Shown here: piece after piece, positions 12,133 to 19,982 of the stretch
Numbering within the stretch: the stretch's first letter is position 1
Layout of the letters: each line of letters starts with the position of its first letter
NCBI GenBank assembly: GCA_019009955.1
Contig: CM032228.1
Location: 98,646,501 to 98,710,500 of the forward strand
Origin: Riptortus pedestris
Lineage: Eukaryota; Arthropoda; Insecta; Hemiptera; Alydidae
Direction of reading: 5' to 3'
DNA length: 64,000 nt
Made by a program: the position numbers and the translations under genes
The notes under the pieces: model-generated
Seen by the model: only the letters and a program-made list of their open reading frames with translations
The model's database searches: none
Told to the model about the DNA's origin: nothing

Positions 12133-12138
12133 TACAAT
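12133..12138. repeat. Target-site duplication, left copy (TACAAT)
   Basis: TACAAT directly precedes the first AG of the element and is repeated without mismatch at 19,977-19,982. Six bases is the duplication length known for Polinton integration. Confidence 0.92.
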
Positions 12139-12165
12139 AGTAGATAAGAAATGCCGATCCTGGCG

Positions 12166-12480
12166 CAAGGTCACGGAGTAAGGTCACGCTGAAGGTCGCG
12201 GATGAATGAAGGCGTACGAGGGGGTCGGATCACTTCCGGCGAGCAATCTGAATGGACTGTTATCATGGTCTGGTGTCGTCACAGTGGCCAGCTCACGCTC
12301 AATGAAAAATGAATCCGTACGAGGGGGTATGATCACTTCCGGTACTACGAGGTACGTTACTCCAGATAAGACCTCTATGGAACCAGCTCAATGAAAAATG
12401 ATGCTGTACGAGGGGTCGAGTCACTTCCGGTGTGCGAGGTACGTCACTCCTGATAGAGACCTCTTATCACGCTCAGCCTG
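12166..12480. promoter_or_regulatory. Subterminal repeat cluster of the Polinton left end
   Basis: Short near-repeats fill the outer 340 bp. AAGGTCACG-type motifs recur three times at about 12,168-12,200. A block of the form GTACGAGGGG...CACTTCCGG recurs at about 12,214, 12,317 and 12,406, and GAGGTACGT-ACTCC occurs twice. The same blocks are mirrored at about 19,635-19,950. Terminal repeats in protein-primed linear elements often serve as origin or transposition signals, but that role here is inference. A 62-codon open frame at 12,206-12,394 (mirrored at 19,721-19,909) crosses these repeats and is probably not a gene. Confidence 0.6.
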
Positions 12481-12499
12481 AGACGTCCCAGCTCGCGTG

Positions 12500-13160
12500 C
12501 ACCCCCCACCGCCGTTCCCCCTAGCGCGTATGCTCAGAGCCCCACCCCCTCGGTTTGTTGCGGTTTGTTGTACGTCCTTGACTATAGCGAGCGGTGTATC
12601 GCCTTCAAGGCTTGTTGTTGTGATGAGTCATACAGGGAGTCTTGATAGAGCCTTCTAAGAAATGACTAATACCTCCACCCCCCTAGCACGTATACTCAGA
12701 GCCCCACCCCATCGGTTTGTTGCGGTTTGTTGTACGTCCTTGACTATAGCGAGCGTATCGCCTTCAAGGCTTGTTGTTGTGATGAGTCATACAGGGAGTC
12801 TTGATATCGCCGTCTAAGAATTGACTAATACCTCCACCCCCCTAGCACGTATACTCAGAGCCCCACCCCCTCGGTTTGTTGCGGTTTGTTGTACGTCCTT
12901 GACTATAGCGATGTATCGCCTTCGAGGCTTGTTGTTGTGATGAGTCATACAGGGAGTCTTGATATCGCCGTCTAAGAATTGACTAATACCTCCACCCCCC
13001 TAGCACGTATACTCAGAGCCCCACCCCCTCGGTTTGTTGCGGTTTGTTGTACGTCCTTGACTATAGCGAGCGGTGTATCGCCTTCAAGGCTTGTTGTTGT
13101 GATGAGTCATACAGGGAGTCTTGATAGCGCTGCCTATGAAATGACTAATACCCCCACCCC
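12500..13160 (+). repeat. TIR minisatellite, four units of 158-162 bp (left)
   Basis: The landmark ATGAGTCAT falls at 12,623, 12,782, 12,940 and 13,102, giving periods of 159, 158 and 162 bp. Each unit also has a C-rich CCCCACCCC stretch, a GTTTGTTGCGGTTTGTTG block and CTTGTTGTTGTGATGAGTCA. ATGAGTCAT is a perfect AP-1/Gcn4-type half-site pair, so the array could act as an enhancer for the adjacent TIR gene; this is inference. The last unit runs in frame with the TIR gene for a stretch, which makes an artificially long open frame upstream of its ATG. Confidence 0.88.
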
Positions 13161-13168
13161 CTTCGAGC

Positions 13169-13176
13169 TGACGTCA
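13169..13176 (+). promoter_or_regulatory. CRE-type palindrome TGACGTCA upstream of TIR gene (left)
   Basis: A perfect TGACGTCA lies 37 bp before the ATG at 13,213, followed by a TATAAT-like stretch near 13,190. This is the canonical CREB/ATF site. Together with the AP-1-type sites in the minisatellite it suggests bZIP control of the TIR gene, which the sequence alone cannot prove. Confidence 0.45.
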
Positions 13177-13212
13177 CACCTCCTCAGTTCTATAATTTCC
13201 TTTAGTCTGAGA

Positions 13213-13557
13213 ATGTATGCCTATTTGTTCATAGACTTCGTACGAGATAACATGGATGTGCTATCAAGGCTAAAAGAGAACCGTCTGTTCAAGCGTTTTA
13301 TAGAAGAGTTACCTAACGTTAAGGTCAATGACCCTATTGCACATGTATATATGGATATTCAAAAATCGTATACAACATTACAAAATAACATTGAATTAGT
13401 TGAAGGGGACAAAATCGACGGACATTATGCTAGCTGTGTTTGGAGTAATCCTAAAGCAAAATCTGGACCTGATACGTGTATATGCTTTTTAATAGCATGG
13501 GATGAACACACGTTATATGAAAAACTTTGTGAATTATATATGGAAGATACGCTTTAA
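13213..13557 (+). CDS. TIR-encoded small protein, unknown function (left copy)
   Basis: An open frame of 114 codons lies wholly inside the left TIR and reads towards the element centre. I do not recognise the family. The protein has no signal peptide or clear membrane span. It has an amphipathic, charged N-terminal half and a C-terminal half with three cysteines (in the contexts ASCVW and TCICF) and an acidic end. The frame is open further upstream through the minisatellite, but I chose the first ATG after the repeats, because codons in the satellite simply translate the repeat. The copy in the right TIR differs by one visible residue (Met here, Ile there, five residues from the end). A poly(A) signal AATAAA follows at 13,737. 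As a gene present twice at the element ends it may be early or regulatory; this is inference. Confidence 0.65.
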   Translation: MYAYLFIDFVRDNMDVLSRLKENRLFKRFIEELPNVKVNDPIAHVYMDIQKSYTTLQNNIELVEGDKIDGHYASCVWSNPKAKSGPDTCICFLIAWDEHTLYEKLCELYMEDTL

Positions 13558-13608
13558 GGTCGCATATGAAGATGCTTTCAGTCAGTCAGTATTCAGCTAC
13601 CGGGCGAG

Positions 13609-13710
13609 ATGGAAGTTATGTTTCAAATCTACCTCCTGGCTAAGAAGACCATAATACGAGACATTAACTGGAATGCTGCTGAAATACCAGATAGTATCAT
13701 ACAATTATAG
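13609..13710 (+). pseudogene. Truncated copy of the repeat-protein gene at the left TIR edge
   Basis: The first 32 codons match the repeat-protein gene at 18,166-18,071. At 13,706 the inverted repeat ends, and the frame closes one codon later with TAG (13,708-13,710). It is a by-product of where the TIR stops. It could still be translated as a 33-residue peptide, but no function is implied. Confidence 0.75.
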
Positions 13711-13732
13711 GAGAGGGGTTATGAAATAACAA

Positions 13733-13765
13733 CACAAATAAAACTTTTATTAAATCTTTTATTAT
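13733..13765. terminator. Bidirectional poly(A) signal region
   Basis: AATAAA occurs on the plus strand at 13,737-13,742 for the left TIR gene. TTTATT (AATAAA on the minus strand) occurs at about 13,745 and 13,757 for the internal minus-strand cluster. Convergent transcripts therefore end in the same 30 bp. Confidence 0.5.
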
Positions 13766-13767
13766 TA

Positions 13768-14400
13768 CTATAAAATAATAAACTTATCAAAACATTGTCT
13801 ATAACGACCATTAGTTGTGCTGCACTTCAAGTTGATAACAATATATCCATGTTGTTCGCTGTTCCAGCAGTAATTACACAGGTTTACAAACTCATTGAAC
13901 TTAATATCTGTTATATTATCATTGTAAAATTTTCTGAGGTTTCGCATATCTTGTTTGAATAATACAAAAACATTCACATTATCTCTAATCAGATGTTTAG
14001 GTACCTTTGAGAAAGTTTGTACTACATACATTACATCGATACAATTATGTCTTCCAAATGAAAACAGATCTCTAATTATATTTTGTTTACATGTAATGCC
14101 ATCATTAAAATTAACAATTGAATTTGGTTTAAGTTCATTCATATTTAGGTCTTCTAACTCCTTCTACATTAACATATATTTGCCTTGATTCATCGTCTTT
14201 GCACATATATATACATTTTCATAGCTCAATAAATTTTTGTGAAGTAATAGAGTTAATAGGAGATCAGCTTTGCCCGATCCTGAGGGTTCAGTGATGATGC
14301 AGCTCACAGATGGTGGGAATAATCTCGAATGTCTCCTGATAACAGAATCCTCCGGCAGCTGAACTCTCCCTATCGCTTCAGGTTGTTGTTGAATCTTCAT
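13768..14400 (-). pseudogene. FtsK/HerA-type genome-packaging ATPase, broken and partly deleted
   Basis: Two frames make up the gene. The first (14,400-14,164) carries the P-loop region as EPSGSGKAD, where the canonical first Gly and final Ser/Thr of GxxxxGK[ST] are both replaced. The second (14,142-13,768) has a Walker-B position reading NFND instead of an Asp-rich end. It is followed by FGRHNCIDVMYVVQTFSKVP and HLIRDN-VFVLFKQD, which are typical of the Polinton/A32-like packaging ATPase. The segment between P-loop and Walker B is far shorter than in the family, so a deletion with frameshift lies near 14,142-14,180. The enzyme would pump DNA into capsids; this copy is very probably dead. Minus-strand poly(A) signals follow near 13,745-13,762. 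Confidence 0.83.
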
Positions 14401-15608
14401 TATATAATTTTATGCACGATGTTCTTGGAAGGTGTGCACTCAATGATTCTATCGTTTATAATTAATGCGTAAGCAGTTGTATTTCCGGGGAAATTCTCTG
14501 ATGCTTGGATTTCAATTTTAATATCGATACTACCAGTCTTAATGCTCTCGTTTTGTTTACTACAATCAATAACAAAGAGAGGGGCTTTGGTTAAATACTC
14601 TTTGAAGCCTAACATCGACTGATCATGTATATTATAGTACGCCGACTTAAATTTAATATATTGATCGTAAAAGAGAACATAATTATTTTTCTTGTAATCA
14701 ACGTTAAACGTTTCATAAGGGTAATAATCAGAATTAAGCCAAACTTTTACATACTAAACTGGTTACATTACAGTGATCGAATATAGACATATCTTTATCT
14801 ATAGCATTCTTTTTATTTGTTTGGAGGCCTATAATGATATATCTAGGTTTCTCAAGGCCTACAATCGTTTTAACTGTCCAATTGTGAAGTCGACTTGAAG
14901 GTAGAGAAGGGAATTCAAACAACTCCCAACTTCTAAATGGGACAGATATATCGTCATCATTTTTAATTATCTTATATAGATGTAGTTTTTCCTCGTAGGA
15001 CAGCGTCACATAGGGAACATGCCATGATACTCTTTGAAGAGTAAGTTTAAACTTTTTATCACTGTCAGATCCTACTATAGCGTTTATGTCAGTTTAGAAC
15101 GAATAAGAATCAATTCTTGTTCCCTTTGAACTATAACTTTATCATAGTCCTCTGCAAATCCCAGAAAAATTTTGAGAGGTATTACACCAGAAAATGAACC
15201 ATCCTTAGTACATAAGTCATTTGTATCGTTCAATGTCCACTCCGCATGCTCTAAGTTCTTAACGGTCGTCGAGCTGAATGACCAATATCCTTTCATTGTA
15301 GAAGTAATCCCACAATTTCTGTTCCGATCAATCTCTACCCCTCCAATCTCATACCTGATTTCATCAAAAAGAAACGCTAACGGATTATTGATAAATGATA
15401 CTTCTGGCGCAGTTCCTGTAGGAGTGGTCAGTTTTCCTTATATATAGATATAGCTCTCTGAAGGCAGTGTGAACACATCTTGTTGCCTTATAGCTATTTT
15501 TATTTCAATATTTGGTGAGTATGTAAGAGTTGAGTACGTTTGATGAGTGTGATATTCAGATCCAATTATTCTATTATCCAACTTGACATCATGTGTGATA
15601 TCTAACAT
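14400..15608 (-). pseudogene. Double-jelly-roll major capsid protein, broken
   Basis: The region encodes a Polinton-type major capsid protein in three frames. Diagnostic parts are an LPSESYIYI strand near the start, a EKPRYIIIGLQTNKKN block (14,820-14,870), and the C-terminal KAPLFVIDCSKQNESIKTG and AYALIINDRIIE segments. Breaks seen: an in-frame TAA at 15,438-15,440, a one-base frameshift near 15,090-15,100 and another near 14,750-14,760. All three would have to be absent to give a product of about 400 residues, the usual size. The stop overlaps the ATPase start by one base (TAATG), a virus-like arrangement. With these breaks this copy cannot make a full capsid protein, unless the indels are assembly errors. 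Confidence 0.86.
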
Positions 15609-15726
15609 ATTTGATTTTGAATCCTAAGTTCTTGAGGAATTCTATGTTTTTCAAAGATAACTTGAATCTTGCGTTGTATGCTGGACGACTACTCACGCAC
15701 GAATGCTTCAAATAAATTATTCCCAT
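15589..15726 (-). CDS. Small basic ORF between penton and capsid genes
   Basis: A 45-codon frame starts at an ATG overlapping the last 10 bp of the penton-type gene and ends 20 bp inside the start of the capsid frame. It is rich in Lys, Arg and Ser with a Tyr-Asn-Ala-Arg-Phe-Lys core. Its tight overlaps on both sides fit a genuine small virion gene, but the length is short and I recognise no family with certainty. It could be a chance frame. Confidence 0.45.
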   Translation of the reverse strand: MGIIYLKHSCVSSRPAYNARFKLSLKNIEFLKNLGFKIKYVRYHT

Positions 15727-16448
15727 TCCTTTATATGTAACCGGATCATAATGTCTTCACCGCTAAATTCAACTAGTTGACCGTCGTCATCTACCAGACG
15801 TATCGTTACGCTATCTATTGTGTGTGTGTTCAAAGGATAATATATTATGTTCCTAGGCCTTTCGTTTATAACGTATCCTGTTTCGACTTCTGGTTTGAAC
15901 TGATATATATCGTGGGATTGCAGGCCATTTTTATAGGCTCCTAGAGCAATGCTGCATTGTACTGAAATAGTATTAACTGGTGAAATATCTACAGGATTAG
16001 TTCCTTCATGTCTTATATTAGCGGCAAGTTTCTTATTTTCAAATCCTAACAATTTGGCAAAGCTTTTTGGGTGATCGAAATCGATTATATAATTACTCTT
16101 TACAGAAACGCGCTTAGTAACAGGGTTAGCCTTTAAAGTAAACTCAGGTTCAGCAGAATTGTTGCCAAAAGCACCGTTATCAAACAACGTGCGTAATTTC
16201 TCTGTAATAGTATGTTCAATATCTGTAACCTCATATGCCCCCTGAGTTAACTTGATTATGTGACATATCTCGTCACAAATACGAAATTCATCATTCAAAC
16301 CTTCACAGATATTTGGTATGGAGTTATAGGTATCTAGTGATAGGAGACCTATATGATATTCACGAGAACTGTCTAAACTAATCGGGGGGAAAAATACGTT
16401 AGTCATCTCAGAGGTGTTACCAGACATAACAAATGTTATATTGCGCAT
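15717..16448 (-). CDS. Penton-type minor capsid protein (single jelly roll)
   Basis: The protein is 243 residues from the chosen Met (MRNITFVMSGN), which is the first Met with a Polinton-like start; the frame is open 20 codons further up, but those codons overlap the protease end. The start (NITFVMSGNTSE, YHIGLLSLDTYNSIPNI) and the close (a VTIRLVDDDGQLVEFSGE stretch, then IRLHI) are the features I associate with the Polinton minor capsid protein, which forms the pentamer at virion vertices with a single jelly-roll fold. This assignment rests on recognition of these motifs, not on an alignment. The gene is intact. It begins within the last codons of the protease gene and ends beside the small ORF and the capsid gene, as in a compact viral late cluster. 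Confidence 0.82.
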   Translation of the reverse strand: MRNITFVMSGNTSEMTNVFFPPISLDSSREYHIGLLSLDTYNSIPNICEGLNDEFRICDEICHIIKLTQGAYEVTDIEHTITEKLRTLFDNGAFGNNSAEPEFTLKANPVTKRVSVKSNYIIDFDHPKSFAKLLGFENKKLAANIRHEGTNPVDISPVNTISVQCSIALGAYKNGLQSHDIYQFKPEVETGYVINERPRNIIYYPLNTHTIDSVTIRLVDDDGQLVEFSGEDIMIRLHIKEWE

Positions 16449-16852
16449 TTTTGTGATCTTTCGTAAAGAAATATAAGACATAAATGTCCGCATATGCTGC
16501 TGTTCCACGACTGATCTCTGTCTCTATTATATCTAATATTTATACCTTTCACATAATCTACTACCTCGGTGGGCGGAGGTAGGTCCCCAAAACTGTCGTA
16601 ATAGACAATGTCTTTATCATATTTAGATAAGGCTACCCAGTGAGTTCCTTCATGGTTGCTATCGTCCAAGTTTATTATTATATTTTCATTCTTCCTTATC
16701 GTCTTTGGTAGTGTATCCCTCGAATAGACACCTCTAAAGTATTTTACATACTTTTTAGCTACATTAGTAATTTCAAAATCTGTCAATGCTCTTACCGGTA
16801 ACCTTTTTACAAATGACGGAACTTTTTTTTTTTTAACCCCCTCCCCTCCCAA
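16436..16852 (-). CDS. Adenovirus-type cysteine protease (adenain-like, Polinton PRO)
   Basis: This 138-residue frame is the maturation protease that processes virion precursors in adenoviruses and Polintons (C5/Ulp1-like fold). The catalytic set is visible: His71 in GTHWVAL, Asp86 in YYDSFGD, Gln114 and Cys121 in the CGHLC block. The segment LPVRALTDFEI (about 18-28) followed by FRGVYSRDTLPK (39-50) is the usual N-terminal region of Polinton proteases. All key residues are present and there is no stop, so it could be active. The start at 16,852 lies inside the preceding gene; residues 7-10 are encoded by the A12 run and match that gene's lysine run in another frame, so the true N terminus is uncertain. 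It overlaps the penton-type gene by 13 bp. Confidence 0.9.
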   Translation of the reverse strand: MGGEGVKKKKVPSFVKRLPVRALTDFEITNVAKKYVKYFRGVYSRDTLPKTIRKNENIIINLDDSNHEGTHWVALSKYDKDIVYYDSFGDLPPPTEVVDYVKGINIRYNRDRDQSWNSSICGHLCLIFLYERSQKCAI

Positions 16853-17595
16853 GGCCTTAGGTACAAGCCGTACCCTTTCTTATAAGGCTTCAAATATAAA
16901 CCTGTTCCTATCATTTTCCCTTCAACACTTTTATTATGTCTTTTTTCCTCTTCTAATTTTTCTCTAGCTATTTTGGAATCGTTTACAGCTTTTGCTACGC
17001 TTGCTGCTCCTGATGCAATCGATCCTAATGCACCTAAAGCTGCAAAAATAGGTATTAGCGGTAATACCCCTCCTGTTTTAGGGATTTCAATAATCCGGGG
17101 GACCTTCTGTTTAGATCTCTTAAATAATTTCCTAGCTATCCTTAGCGCATTACTAACATTTTCAGTTAAGCTAGCCCCCTTCTGGATATGCCTCCTTATC
17201 TTTTTTATAGAATTCTTGAAAACACTCCCACCTAATTTCGTTTTTAACTTCATAGCGTTCGTAACGGCCCACGCCGCAGTTTTTTCCCCTAACGTCGAAT
17301 CTTTAGCTTTAACACGCATCCAAGCTTCTTCAGCTAACCTTTTATCAGCTAAAGTTCTTTGCGAGGGGTCTTTTGAAGTGTATGCTATATCGTGTCGTTT
17401 ACAAGCCTCGTCCAAAGGGTTAACACCCTTATCACCTCTGGCTAACCTCTTCTCTAAATGTGTTCCAGGCCCACAATATCTATAACCTGGTAAATGGAGT
17501 TCAACAGGCAATTTATCAATCACTTTGTTCAGAACCCCTGTTCCTCGATGTTTACTCTTCTGCATATCTGAGCATACTACCTGTATGTTGAACAT
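16807..17595 (-). CDS. PLA2-domain minor virion protein (virion-maturation type)
   Basis: The 262-residue frame has a parvovirus-type secreted phospholipase A2 core. It shows the calcium-loop motif YCGPGT (40-45), an NPLD segment (59-62) and the catalytic HD pair at 68-69 in the context CKRHDIAY. In parvoviruses this domain helps the particle breach endosomal membranes, and similar domains occur in Polinton/adintovirus virion proteins. The middle is very basic. A hydrophobic Gly/Ala-rich stretch (about 180-205) could be membrane-active. The C terminus repeats GLYLKP/GLYLRP-like blocks and ends in a lysine run. Translation may start at Met11 (17,565), directly before the conserved-looking part. 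The gene is intact and overlaps the protease gene by 46 bp across a run of twelve A on the coding strand. Confidence 0.87.
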   Translation of the reverse strand: MFNIQVVCSDMQKSKHRGTGVLNKVIDKLPVELHLPGYRYCGPGTHLEKRLARGDKGVNPLDEACKRHDIAYTSKDPSQRTLADKRLAEEAWMRVKAKDSTLGEKTAAWAVTNAMKLKTKLGGSVFKNSIKKIRRHIQKGASLTENVSNALRIARKLFKRSKQKVPRIIEIPKTGGVLPLIPIFAALGALGSIASGAASVAKAVNDSKIAREKLEEEKRHNKSVEGKMIGTGLYLKPYKKGYGLYLRPWEGRGLKKKKFRHL

Positions 17596-17701
17596 TGCAT
17601 TGTATTTGAAGGAAATGAAAATACTAGTTTTATTTTTTAAATATTTATTTTTTATAAAACATAAAATACAGTATTTTTTTTCTTAAACAAAAATATACAT
17701 T

Positions 17702-18166
17702 TCAATTTTCATTACATATATACTTTATATACTCTTCAGGAGAGTGCTTTTGATATATAAGAATGATGTCCCAATCCATTCGATCTTGGTTGTCTATGAT
17801 AAAAGATATTGATAGATCTTGATTCTTAGCTATGTTCGTCCAATCCACCAAGTTCTGATGTTCCTGAATGAAGTCTTCCGAGAGCGTTTGAAAAGCTGAG
17901 ATATCTTCCCACACAACTTTATCAGCATATTTACGTATCATGTCCTCACTCAAAGTCTGATACATAGACACATTCTTCCAACATAGACGATACTTAAATG
18001 TGTCTAAAATGTAGTCGCTTAAAGAGCCTTCTTTTGACAAATTCTCCCAGTCAATGTAGTCGGCAAATTCTTGTATGATACTATCTGGTATTTCAGCAGC
18101 ATTCCAGTTAATGTCTCGTATTATGGTCTTCTTAGCCAGGAGGTAGATTTGAAACATAACTTCCAT
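17702..18166 (-). CDS. 23-residue-repeat protein (about 154 aa)
   Basis: The protein is built of about five tandem units of 23 residues running from about residue 28 to 145. Each unit follows the pattern (D/E)-x-I-I/F-I-x4-D-x-V/I-x-W-x-x-I/L-S-x-x-Q-x-L-S. A conserved Trp and a closing Leu-Ser mark each unit. Short helical repeats of this pattern are known to me from large DNA viruses and would form a helical solenoid suited to protein binding, but I cannot name the family with certainty. The gene is intact. Its first 33 codons lie within the right TIR, so a truncated copy also sits in the left TIR. An A/T-rich stretch with a minus-strand AATAAA near 17,645 separates it from the next gene, so it may have its own transcript. 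Confidence 0.75.
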   Translation of the reverse strand: MEVMFQIYLLAKKTIIRDINWNAAEIPDSIIQEFADYIDWENLSKEGSLSDYILDTFKYRLCWKNVSMYQTLSEDMIRKYADKVVWEDISAFQTLSEDFIQEHQNLVDWTNIAKNQDLSISFIIDNQDRMDWDIILIYQKHSPEEYIKYICNEN

Positions 18167-18217
18167 CTCGCCCGGTAGCTGAATACTGACTGACTGAAAG
18201 CATCTTCATATGCGACC

Positions 18218-18562
18218 TTAAAGCGTATCTTCTATATATAATTCACAAAGTTTTTCATATAACGTGTGTTCATCCCATGCTATTAAAAAGCATATACACG
18301 TATCAGGTCCAGATTTTGCTTTAGGATTACTCCAAACACAGCTAGCATAATGTCCGTCGATTTTGTCCCCTTCAACTAATTCAATGTTATTTTGTAATGT
18401 TGTATACGATTTTTGAATATCCATATATACATGTGCAATAGGGTCATTGACCTTAACGTTAGGTAACTCTTCTATAAAACGCTTGAACAGACGGTTCTCT
18501 TTTAGCCTTGATAGCACATCCATGTTATCTCGTACGAAGTCTATGAACAAATAGGCATACAT
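18218..18562 (-). CDS. TIR-encoded small protein, unknown function (right copy)
   Basis: Second copy of the 114-codon TIR gene, on the minus strand. It reads into the element and lies 51 bp upstream of the repeat-protein gene, with the same orientation. It is identical to the left copy apart from one visible Met/Ile change near the C terminus. A longer open frame back to 18,889 only translates minisatellite units and is not used here. No family is recognised. Near-identity of the two copies is expected from TIR conversion and is therefore not by itself evidence of selection. Confidence 0.65.
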   Translation of the reverse strand: MYAYLFIDFVRDNMDVLSRLKENRLFKRFIEELPNVKVNDPIAHVYMDIQKSYTTLQNNIELVEGDKIDGHYASCVWSNPKAKSGPDTCICFLIAWDEHTLYEKLCELYIEDTL

Positions 18563-18598
18563 TCTCAGACTAAAGGAAATTATAGAACTGAGGAGGTG

Positions 18599-18606
18599 TG
18601 ACGTCA
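18599..18606 (-). promoter_or_regulatory. CRE-type palindrome TGACGTCA upstream of TIR gene (right)
   Basis: Mirror copy of the site at 13,169-13,176, placed 36 bp before the minus-strand ATG at 18,562. Confidence 0.45.
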
Positions 18607-18609
18607 GCT

Positions 18610-19590
18610 CGAAGGGGGTGGGGGTATTAGTCATTTCATAGGCAGCGCTATCAAGACTCCCTGTATGACTCATCACAACAACAAGCCTTGAAGGCGATAC
18701 ACCGCTCGCTATAGTCAAGGACGTACAACAAACCGCAACAAACCGAGGGGGTGGGGCTCTGAGTATACGCGTTAGGGAGGTGGGGGTATTAGTCATTTCA
18801 TAGACGGCTCTATCAAGACTCCCTGTATGACTCATCACAACAACAAGCCTCGAAGGCGATACATCGCTATAGTCAAGGACGTACAACAAACCGCAACAAA
18901 CCGAGGGGGTGGGGCTCTGAGTATACGTGCTAGGGGGGTGGAGGTATTAGTCAATTCTTAGACGGCGATATCAAGACTCCCTGTATGACTCATCACAACA
19001 ACAAGCCTCGAAGGCGATACATCGCTATAGTCAAGGACGTACAACAAACCGCAACAAACCGAGGGGGTGGGGCTCTGAGTATACGTGCTAGGGGGGTGGA
19101 GGTATTAGTCAATTCTTAGACGGCGATATCAAGACTCCCTGTATGACTCATCACAACAACAAGCCTTGAAGGCGATACATCGCTATAGTCAAGGACGTAC
19201 AACAAACCGCAACAAACCGAGGGGGTGGGGCTCTGAGTATACGTGCTAGGGGGGGTGGAGGTATTAGTCAATTCTTAGACGGCGATATCAAGACTCCCTG
19301 TATGACTCATCACAACAACAAGCCTTGAAGGCGATACACCGCTCGCTATAGTCAAGGACGTACAACAAACCGCAACAAACCGAGTGGGTGGGGCTCTGAG
19401 CATACGCGCTAGAGGGGTGGGGGGAGGGCAGTGGGGGTGGAGGTATTAGTCAATTCTTAGACGGCTCTATCAAGACTCCCTGTATGACTCATCACAACAA
19501 CAAGCCTTGAAGGCGATACACCGCTCGCTATAGTCAAGGACGTACAACAAACCGCAACAAACCGAGGGGGTGGGGCTCTGAGCATACGCG
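18610..19590 (-). repeat. TIR minisatellite, six units of 158-182 bp (right)
   Basis: The landmark ATGACTCAT (reverse complement of ATGAGTCAT) occurs at 18,665, 18,827, 18,985, 19,143, 19,302 and 19,484, so periods are 162, 158, 158, 159 and 182 bp. The outermost unit is longer because of an extra G/C-rich insert near 19,410-19,440. Two more units than in the left arm account for the whole length difference between the TIRs. Confidence 0.88.
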
Positions 19591-19976
19591 CTAGGGGGAA
19601 CGGCGGTGGGGGGTGCACGCGAGCTGGGACGTCTCAGGCTGAGCGTGATAAGAGGTCTCTATCAGGAGTGACGTACCTCGCACACCGGAAGTGACTCGAC
19701 CCCTCGTACGGCATCATTTTTCATTGAGCTGGTTCCATAGAGGTCTTATCTGGAGTAACGTACCTCGTAGTACCGGAAGTGATCATACCCCCTCGTACGG
19801 ATTCATTTTTCATTGAGCGTGAGCTGGCCACTGTGACGACACCAGACCATGATAACAGTCCATTCAGATTGCTCGCCGGAAGTGATCCGACCCCCTCGTA
19901 CGCCTTCATTCATCCGCGACCTTCAGCGTGACCTTACTCCGTGACCTTGCGCCAGGATCGGCATTTCTTATCTACT

Positions 19977-19982
19977 TACAAT
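19977..19982. repeat. Target-site duplication, right copy (TACAAT)
   Basis: TACAAT directly follows the last CT of the element and matches 12,133-12,138 in the same orientation. Confidence 0.92.

Follow-up and report, generated by a model that had tools for sequence, protein, structure and literature searches.

The 64-kb stretch of Riptortus pedestris DNA analysed here (the window; C1:98646501-98710500 in a chromosome-scale assembly of 1.08 Gb and 138 contigs) contains a complete insertion of a short Polinton (window 12139-19976, 7.8 kb), whose two ends both correspond to one end, the right one, of a full-length relative in the same genome. No polB or integrase gene was detected in it, and some of its virion genes are broken. 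We consider this element to be probably a trans-mobilised copy-back (snap-back) deletion derivative of a full-length Polinton.

Structure of the short Polinton and its full-length relative

The short element is flanked by a perfect target-site duplication, TACAAT, with the two copies lying directly outside its ends (12133-12138 and 19977-19982), and both termini read inward as AGTAGATAAG.... A left inverted arm (12139-13704, plus strand) and a right inverted arm (18071-19976, minus strand), 1.6-1.9 kb in length, enclose a single-copy interior of 4366 nt (13705-18070). The arms differ in length mainly by about two units of a ~158-nt tandem array, which has ~4 units on the left (12517-13161) and ~6 units on the right (18614-19598). 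The arm-to-arm alignment contains eight mismatches, two of them past the inner end of the arms; the arms themselves have one mismatch in 378 terminal positions and one in 543 inner positions, with four more in the tandem array. Two polB proteins of Polintons and one integrase, all from the same genome, served as tblastn queries against the whole window (E up to 1e-4); neither gene was found. The original prediction, made from the letters of the window, had described exact ends, a perfect duplication, full terminal inverted repeats (TIRs) and a lack of polB and integrase, all of which we confirmed. The element thus has the TIRs and 6-nt duplication of an autonomous Polinton/Maverick and lacks its polB and rve integrase; the capsid, ATPase and protease genes are present, with the capsid and ATPase genes broken.

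A search of the genome with the TIR gave 101 matches (29 of 29 candidates scored) and revealed one other near-identical end pair (99%), at C2:181661382 and C2:181675002, which lie 13.6 kb apart. This relative (C2:181) has its own perfect duplication, ATAGGC, and its flanks are unrelated to those of the short element. It carries polB (DNA_pol_B_2 match, E 1.5e-18 on one piece), interrupted at several places, and an rve-type integrase whose match spans residues 1-314 of 316 and contains two TGA codons; it also holds the genes of the short element in identical order, several of them broken as well. Over the terminal 377 aligned nucleotides, the two elements show two differences and one one-base gap on each side. 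Hence, the cis-acting ends of the short element are the same as those of a relative bearing polB and integrase, which supports the earlier view of a non-autonomous Polinton with complete ends and supplies the full-length relative that it called for, though both replication and integration genes of this relative are interrupted. For comparison of gene order, a 15.4-kb Polinton at C1:5468524-5483924 (C1:5.47M), with the duplication TTTATA on both sides, was used. Its order is 154-aa gene, phospholipase A2 (PLA2), protease, candidate penton, capsid, ATPase, two unknown genes, integrase, two frames and polB. This Polinton itself sits within the polB gene of another Polinton.

Comparison with C2:181 disclosed how the short element is built. 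Window positions 13705-19976 are collinear with the right half of C2:181, including the interior and the right arm (93.9-95.6% identity), and the right arm is the original right end as found in that relative. The left arm also matches the right end of C2:181, not its left subterminal sequence. Past the ~378-nt terminal repeat common to both ends and the tandem array, the left arm continues for a further 543 nt of right-end sequence, which terminates in a second, truncated copy of the beginning of the 154-aa gene (96 nt, 13609-13704, plus strand, mirrored from 18071-18166). At the junction (13704/13705), where no microhomology is evident, the inner end of the copied arm is joined to position L010:1335 of the 13.6-kb relative, which lies just past the 3' end of the ATPase gene. 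Both ends therefore come from one parental end, and an internal site is joined to an inverted arm, as in copy-back or snap-back derivatives. This inverted right-end copy, which the original prediction had missed, suggests how the short form arose. The junction (~13697-13704) reads ...CATACAATTATAGG... and contains the hexamer TACAAT, identical to the target duplication; this is probably chance, because five of the six letters are already present in the parental arm.

A genome search with a right-end probe (window 18000-18613) returned 11 matches (nine of nine candidates scored; the counts are lower bounds). The probe sequence occurs once in C2:181, once in C6:81.59 and once in C6:63 (as two adjoining pieces), and five other matches are scraps of 51-113 nt. 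It is present twice and in inverted orientation only in the window element, so the short form appears to be single-copy in this assembly. The expectation of several 7.8-kb copies with different duplications was therefore not borne out. Several rearranged pieces of virion genes of this element's family were also seen on C18, a 65.6-kb contig (L032-L034).

Palindromic Polintons carrying only polB

The TIR search also uncovered three near-perfect palindromes of ~16 kb and one half-copy, which carry polB only. The palindromes are located at C2:8.6M (L011/L012; arms of 8.04 kb, 99.4% identical), C3:103.5M (L013/L014; 98.6% over 7.2 kb) and C2:149.6M (L015/L016; 98.0% over 7.35 kb), and the half-copy at C4:104.5M (L017/L021). 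Each palindrome arm contains polB, and the seven polB frames all remain open for 1244 codons; tblastn detected neither an integrase nor virion genes in the palindromes. C3:103.5M and C2:149.6M have a common centre of ~480 nt (94.7%), half of which is present in the half-copy (99% of 247 nt), and the centre of C2:8.6M is different and itself palindromic. No pairwise match was found among the flanks. C3:103.5M has the duplication AGCATT/AGCATT (6/6 letters) and C2:149.6M has TTCATA/CTCATA (5/6). The common centre, the different sites and the individual duplications indicate that these inverted-arm Polintons move as units.

The polB genes of the palindromes were then compared for selection. Omega (the nonsynonymous-to-synonymous ratio) was 0.35-0.37 when C2:8.6M was compared with the other three elements (left arms and half-copy; p <1e-4 in all three comparisons), and among C3:103.5M, C2:149.6M and C4:104.5M it was 0.49-0.58 (p 0.026, 0.039 and 0.11). 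From arm to arm, the synonymous/nonsynonymous changes were 1/0 in C2:8.6M, 13/9 in C3:103.5M and 2/10 in C2:149.6M, the last being as expected for drift after insertion. These data show that inverted-arm Polintons without an integrase gene, whose polymerase has evolved under selection, have spread. The polB of the palindromes is ~51-57% identical to the larger pieces of the C2:181 polB, which places them in a different subfamily; accordingly, they are not partners of the window element by descent.

Two further polB loci of the palindrome subfamily were found at C1:229.27M (91%, one stop) and C2:91.6M (78%, many stops). These two and C5:20.3M were rejected as palindromes, with no long inverted arms in the stretches compared. 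The C5:20.33M locus (L024/L025) has an open polB frame of 1170 aa, with no integrase or virion gene detected within 16.5 kb, and its halves share only short inverted matches of up to 238 nt at 75-83%.

Virion genes of the short element

The interior genes of the short element lie on the minus strand. From the right, they encode a 154-aa repeat-like protein (17702-18166; open, with a homologue in C1:5.47M), a PLA2-domain protein (16807-17595; open, Pfam match), an adenovirus/Ulp1-type cysteine protease (16436-16852; open), a candidate minor capsid (penton) protein of 263 aa (15717-16508; open), a double jelly-roll (DJR) capsid protein (14400-15437) and an A32-type packaging ATPase (13768-14400). 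The protease has a Pfam match below the cut-off (E 0.008-0.013) and no match in a PDB profile search. We take the 263-aa frame to be a candidate penton from its gene position; it has no Pfam match and no credible PDB match, since a search with a three-sequence profile gave one chance-level match (E 0.26), and the AlphaFold single-sequence model was unusable (mean pLDDT 31.6). The capsid gene is split over three frames, with a Pfam match in all three fragments, and the ATPase gene has an in-frame stop, with one of its two pieces matching Pfam just above the cut-off. The claim that the 4.4-kb interior keeps virion genes thus holds for their presence, not for their integrity. An open frame of ~120 aa without a Pfam match lies in the right arm (18218-18589, minus strand), and its duplicate lies in the left arm (13186-13557, plus strand; start mirrored from the right arm). 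Among ten interior and arm frames of at least 60 aa, no Pfam match (E up to 1) to replication genes of Polinton-like viruses (PLVs) or to a tyrosine integrase was obtained. Elsewhere in the genome (L036/L037, C1:240.607-240.625M), a Polinton PLA2 piece of 32-45 aa repeats about every 1.08 kb with eight matches, apparently a tandem array grown from a Polinton fragment.

The capsid frame is broken twice. One break is identical in the window copy and in C2:181, with no length difference there, and C1:5.47M has a single frame across this region; on the simplest reading, the break therefore predates both insertions. The virion frames of the window copy were then aligned with those of C2:181, and codons with a single difference were examined, excluding seven multi-difference codons, the 78-aa ATPase piece and the arm-borne frame. 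The results showed that 83 of 118 such codons were nonsynonymous, compared with 75.6% expected without selection (omega ~0.77, p 0.11). When the candidate penton was left out, the count was 62 of 80 (omega ~1.06), which fits neutrality. PLA2 alone gave 21 of 29 (omega ~1.01), the 154-aa gene 12 of 17 (omega ~0.51, p 0.16) and the candidate penton 21 of 38 (omega ~0.45, p 0.012). A Nei-Gojobori (NG86) count that included the arm-borne frame gave a pN/pS of 0.69 (39 synonymous and 98 nonsynonymous differences). Judged from these substitutions, the virion genes other than the candidate penton look like passengers.

Origin of the short element

The structure would be accounted for by an error of replication before integration. 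Protein-primed strand-displacement synthesis would start from the right end of a full-length Polinton, and the polymerase would copy inward through the virion genes and leave its template just past the ATPase gene (window 13705). The polymerase would then switch to the complementary strand, restarting at 18071, where the right arm has its inner end, and run out to the right terminus, yielding a product with two right ends. Since both ends of the product are right ends, protein-primed replication and an integrase acting in trans could still operate on it; the same end twice in inverted order should suffice for protein-primed initiation and for the integrase. The short molecule, with replication and integrase supplied in trans, would then integrate and produce the TACAAT duplication, with the virion genes riding along as passengers. 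One such template-switch scheme could cover both shapes of element: a near jump would give a near-perfect palindrome with a loop of ~90-480 nt, and a far jump would give shorter arms and a long single-copy middle (4366 nt in the window element).

Possible suppliers of both functions exist in this genome. With 37 of 423 polB candidates scored, at least 18 non-palindromic loci have an open polB frame that is 1100 aa or longer, their matched pieces being free of stops; with 126 of 1171 integrase candidates scored, at least 17 loci have a stop-free match to 300 or more of the 316 integrase residues. In addition, 15 integrase loci (e.g. C4:51050648 and C2:1494921), apparently of one Polinton subfamily, match query residues 10-280/281, and each has exactly one in-frame TGA in an otherwise long open frame, which may be a shared defect or recoding.

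The divergence data were also considered. The near identity of the two arms is as expected if one was made by copying shortly before insertion. Over 2281 interior columns, with C6:81.59 as the outgroup and gapped columns dropped, the window copy has 30 private changes (1.3%) and C2:181 has 56. If all 30 had arisen after insertion, ~24 arm differences would be expected over 921 positions, and two were seen; thus, either the interior drifted mostly before insertion or the arms have been homogenised by gene conversion. Drift of the interior before insertion fits a passenger carried in trans. The window element differs from C2:181 least in the terminal repeat (0.5%), more in the inner arm (2.0%) and most in the interior (3.8-4.0%). 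Furthermore, both the short and the long (C2:181) element have perfect 6-nt duplications at unrelated sites.

Several points weigh against an origin as a trans-mobilised copy-back derivative. No second copy of the short form was found, and a single duplication is therefore all the evidence that it moved once formed. The palindromes come from a different subfamily and support the mechanism only by analogy, and the duplication of C2:8.6M (TTTCAC/TTCTAC, 4/6 letters) is unconvincing. The candidate penton, as described above, shows some constraint. Gene conversion between the arms could mask a greater age. Finally, C6:81.59 and C2:181 are 87% identical in the terminal repeat and 91% in the interior, indicating that the ends are not always the better-conserved part; with this contradiction, low TIR divergence was dropped as proof of long-term constraint.

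The main competing explanation, which we regard as possible though unlikely, is rearrangement after integration: a full-length Polinton would have been inserted, and a later break in its left half would have been repaired by copying the right arm, followed by end joining. This copying might have proceeded by template switching or by annealing at the inverted repeats; PMC6103520 and PMC4689423 describe errors of repair and replication at such repeats. Such repair inside an already integrated copy could yield the same inverted-arm map, would keep the outer duplication and the TIRs, and would be consistent with a junction without evident microhomology. However, two palindromes with a common centre are found at different sites with their own duplications, which shows that inverted-arm forms are mobile as units in this genome. 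The near-identical arms also give no sign of two ages along their whole length, a weak test with so few mismatches. By analogy, the palindrome family makes formation before integration plausible, without being proof for the window locus.

A helper-dependent satellite virus, with working virion genes of its own and borrowed replication and integration, to which the original prediction had likened the element, is very improbable here. The gene content of the interior, the open penton, protease, PLA2 and 154-aa frames, and the omega values of the penton and 154-aa genes would agree with it. However, such a virus needs a working structural set, and the capsid is broken twice, with one break common to C2:181 and absent from C1:5.47M, the ATPase is stopped, the 80 single-difference codons outside the penton are compatible with neutrality, and no second copy was found. 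For the window copy, this possibility is largely refuted. Least probable of all is an assembly artefact, namely a full-length element that has been collapsed or misjoined into a chimera. Inverted repeats are difficult for assemblers, and the structure is known from the assembly rather than raw reads. Against this, the contigs are chromosome-scale, and the left inner arm joins 543 nt of right-end sequence, including a gene start, to the interior, an arrangement that could not result from deleting or collapsing part of a canonical element. The collapsed interior that the original prediction named as a possible refutation is not needed.

Discussion

The short element resembles Polintons/Mavericks (Polintoviricetes) in its 6-nt duplication, long TIRs, DJR capsid, A32 ATPase, cysteine protease and near relative with polB and rve integrase, and differs from them in lacking polB and integrase, in having an inverted right-end copy as its left end and in its decaying virion genes. 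Non-autonomous transposons and snap-back subgenomes are, each separately, known kinds. In copy-back defective interfering genomes, symmetric defective adenovirus genomes and the palindromic deletion forms of the yeast linear plasmid pGKL1, the termini come from one parental end through template switching, and the forms depend on helpers. These occur in replicating populations, whereas the element here is a chromosomal insertion with a target duplication. To our knowledge, the replication of Polintons by protein priming is largely deduced from gene content.

The closest analogue that we met is provided by the snap-back subgenomes of adeno-associated virus (AAV), which, according to PMC8235507, have inverted arms and occur in two complementary kinds, with replication-gene or capsid sequence. 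However, these were studied as single virion genomes of a parvovirus, whereas here protein-primed double-stranded DNA elements in a nuclear genome are concerned, and the two kinds come from different Polinton subfamilies. According to PMC11071308, PLVs have a DJR capsid but for the most part neither pPolB nor an RVE integrase, and they carry other replication genes in their place; the window element is similar in having a DJR capsid gene without pPolB or RVE integrase, but it has no such alternative replication genes, and its 94-96% identical relative is a canonical Polinton. In the part of the open-licence literature searched, no description of palindromic or copy-back Polintons was found.

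A more far-reaching idea, which we think quite improbable, is that complementary inverted-arm subgenomes are shed by the Polintons of this genome, namely polB-only palindromes with a selected polymerase on each arm and virion-side copy-backs, and that these persist as interdependent mobile families, also needing full-length copies, and so represent an incipient split-genome (segmented) version of a self-synthesising transposon.

Elements with both ends from one parental end, together with palindromes carrying a selected polymerase, are by-products that would be expected of protein-primed replication, frozen in a genome. Such elements may therefore serve as a countable genomic footprint of Polinton replication errors in other genomes. 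They also suggest that mobilisation of a Polinton derivative requires no more than a pair of ends in inverted order. Should copy-back forms prove common, Polintons would have something like defective interfering genomes.

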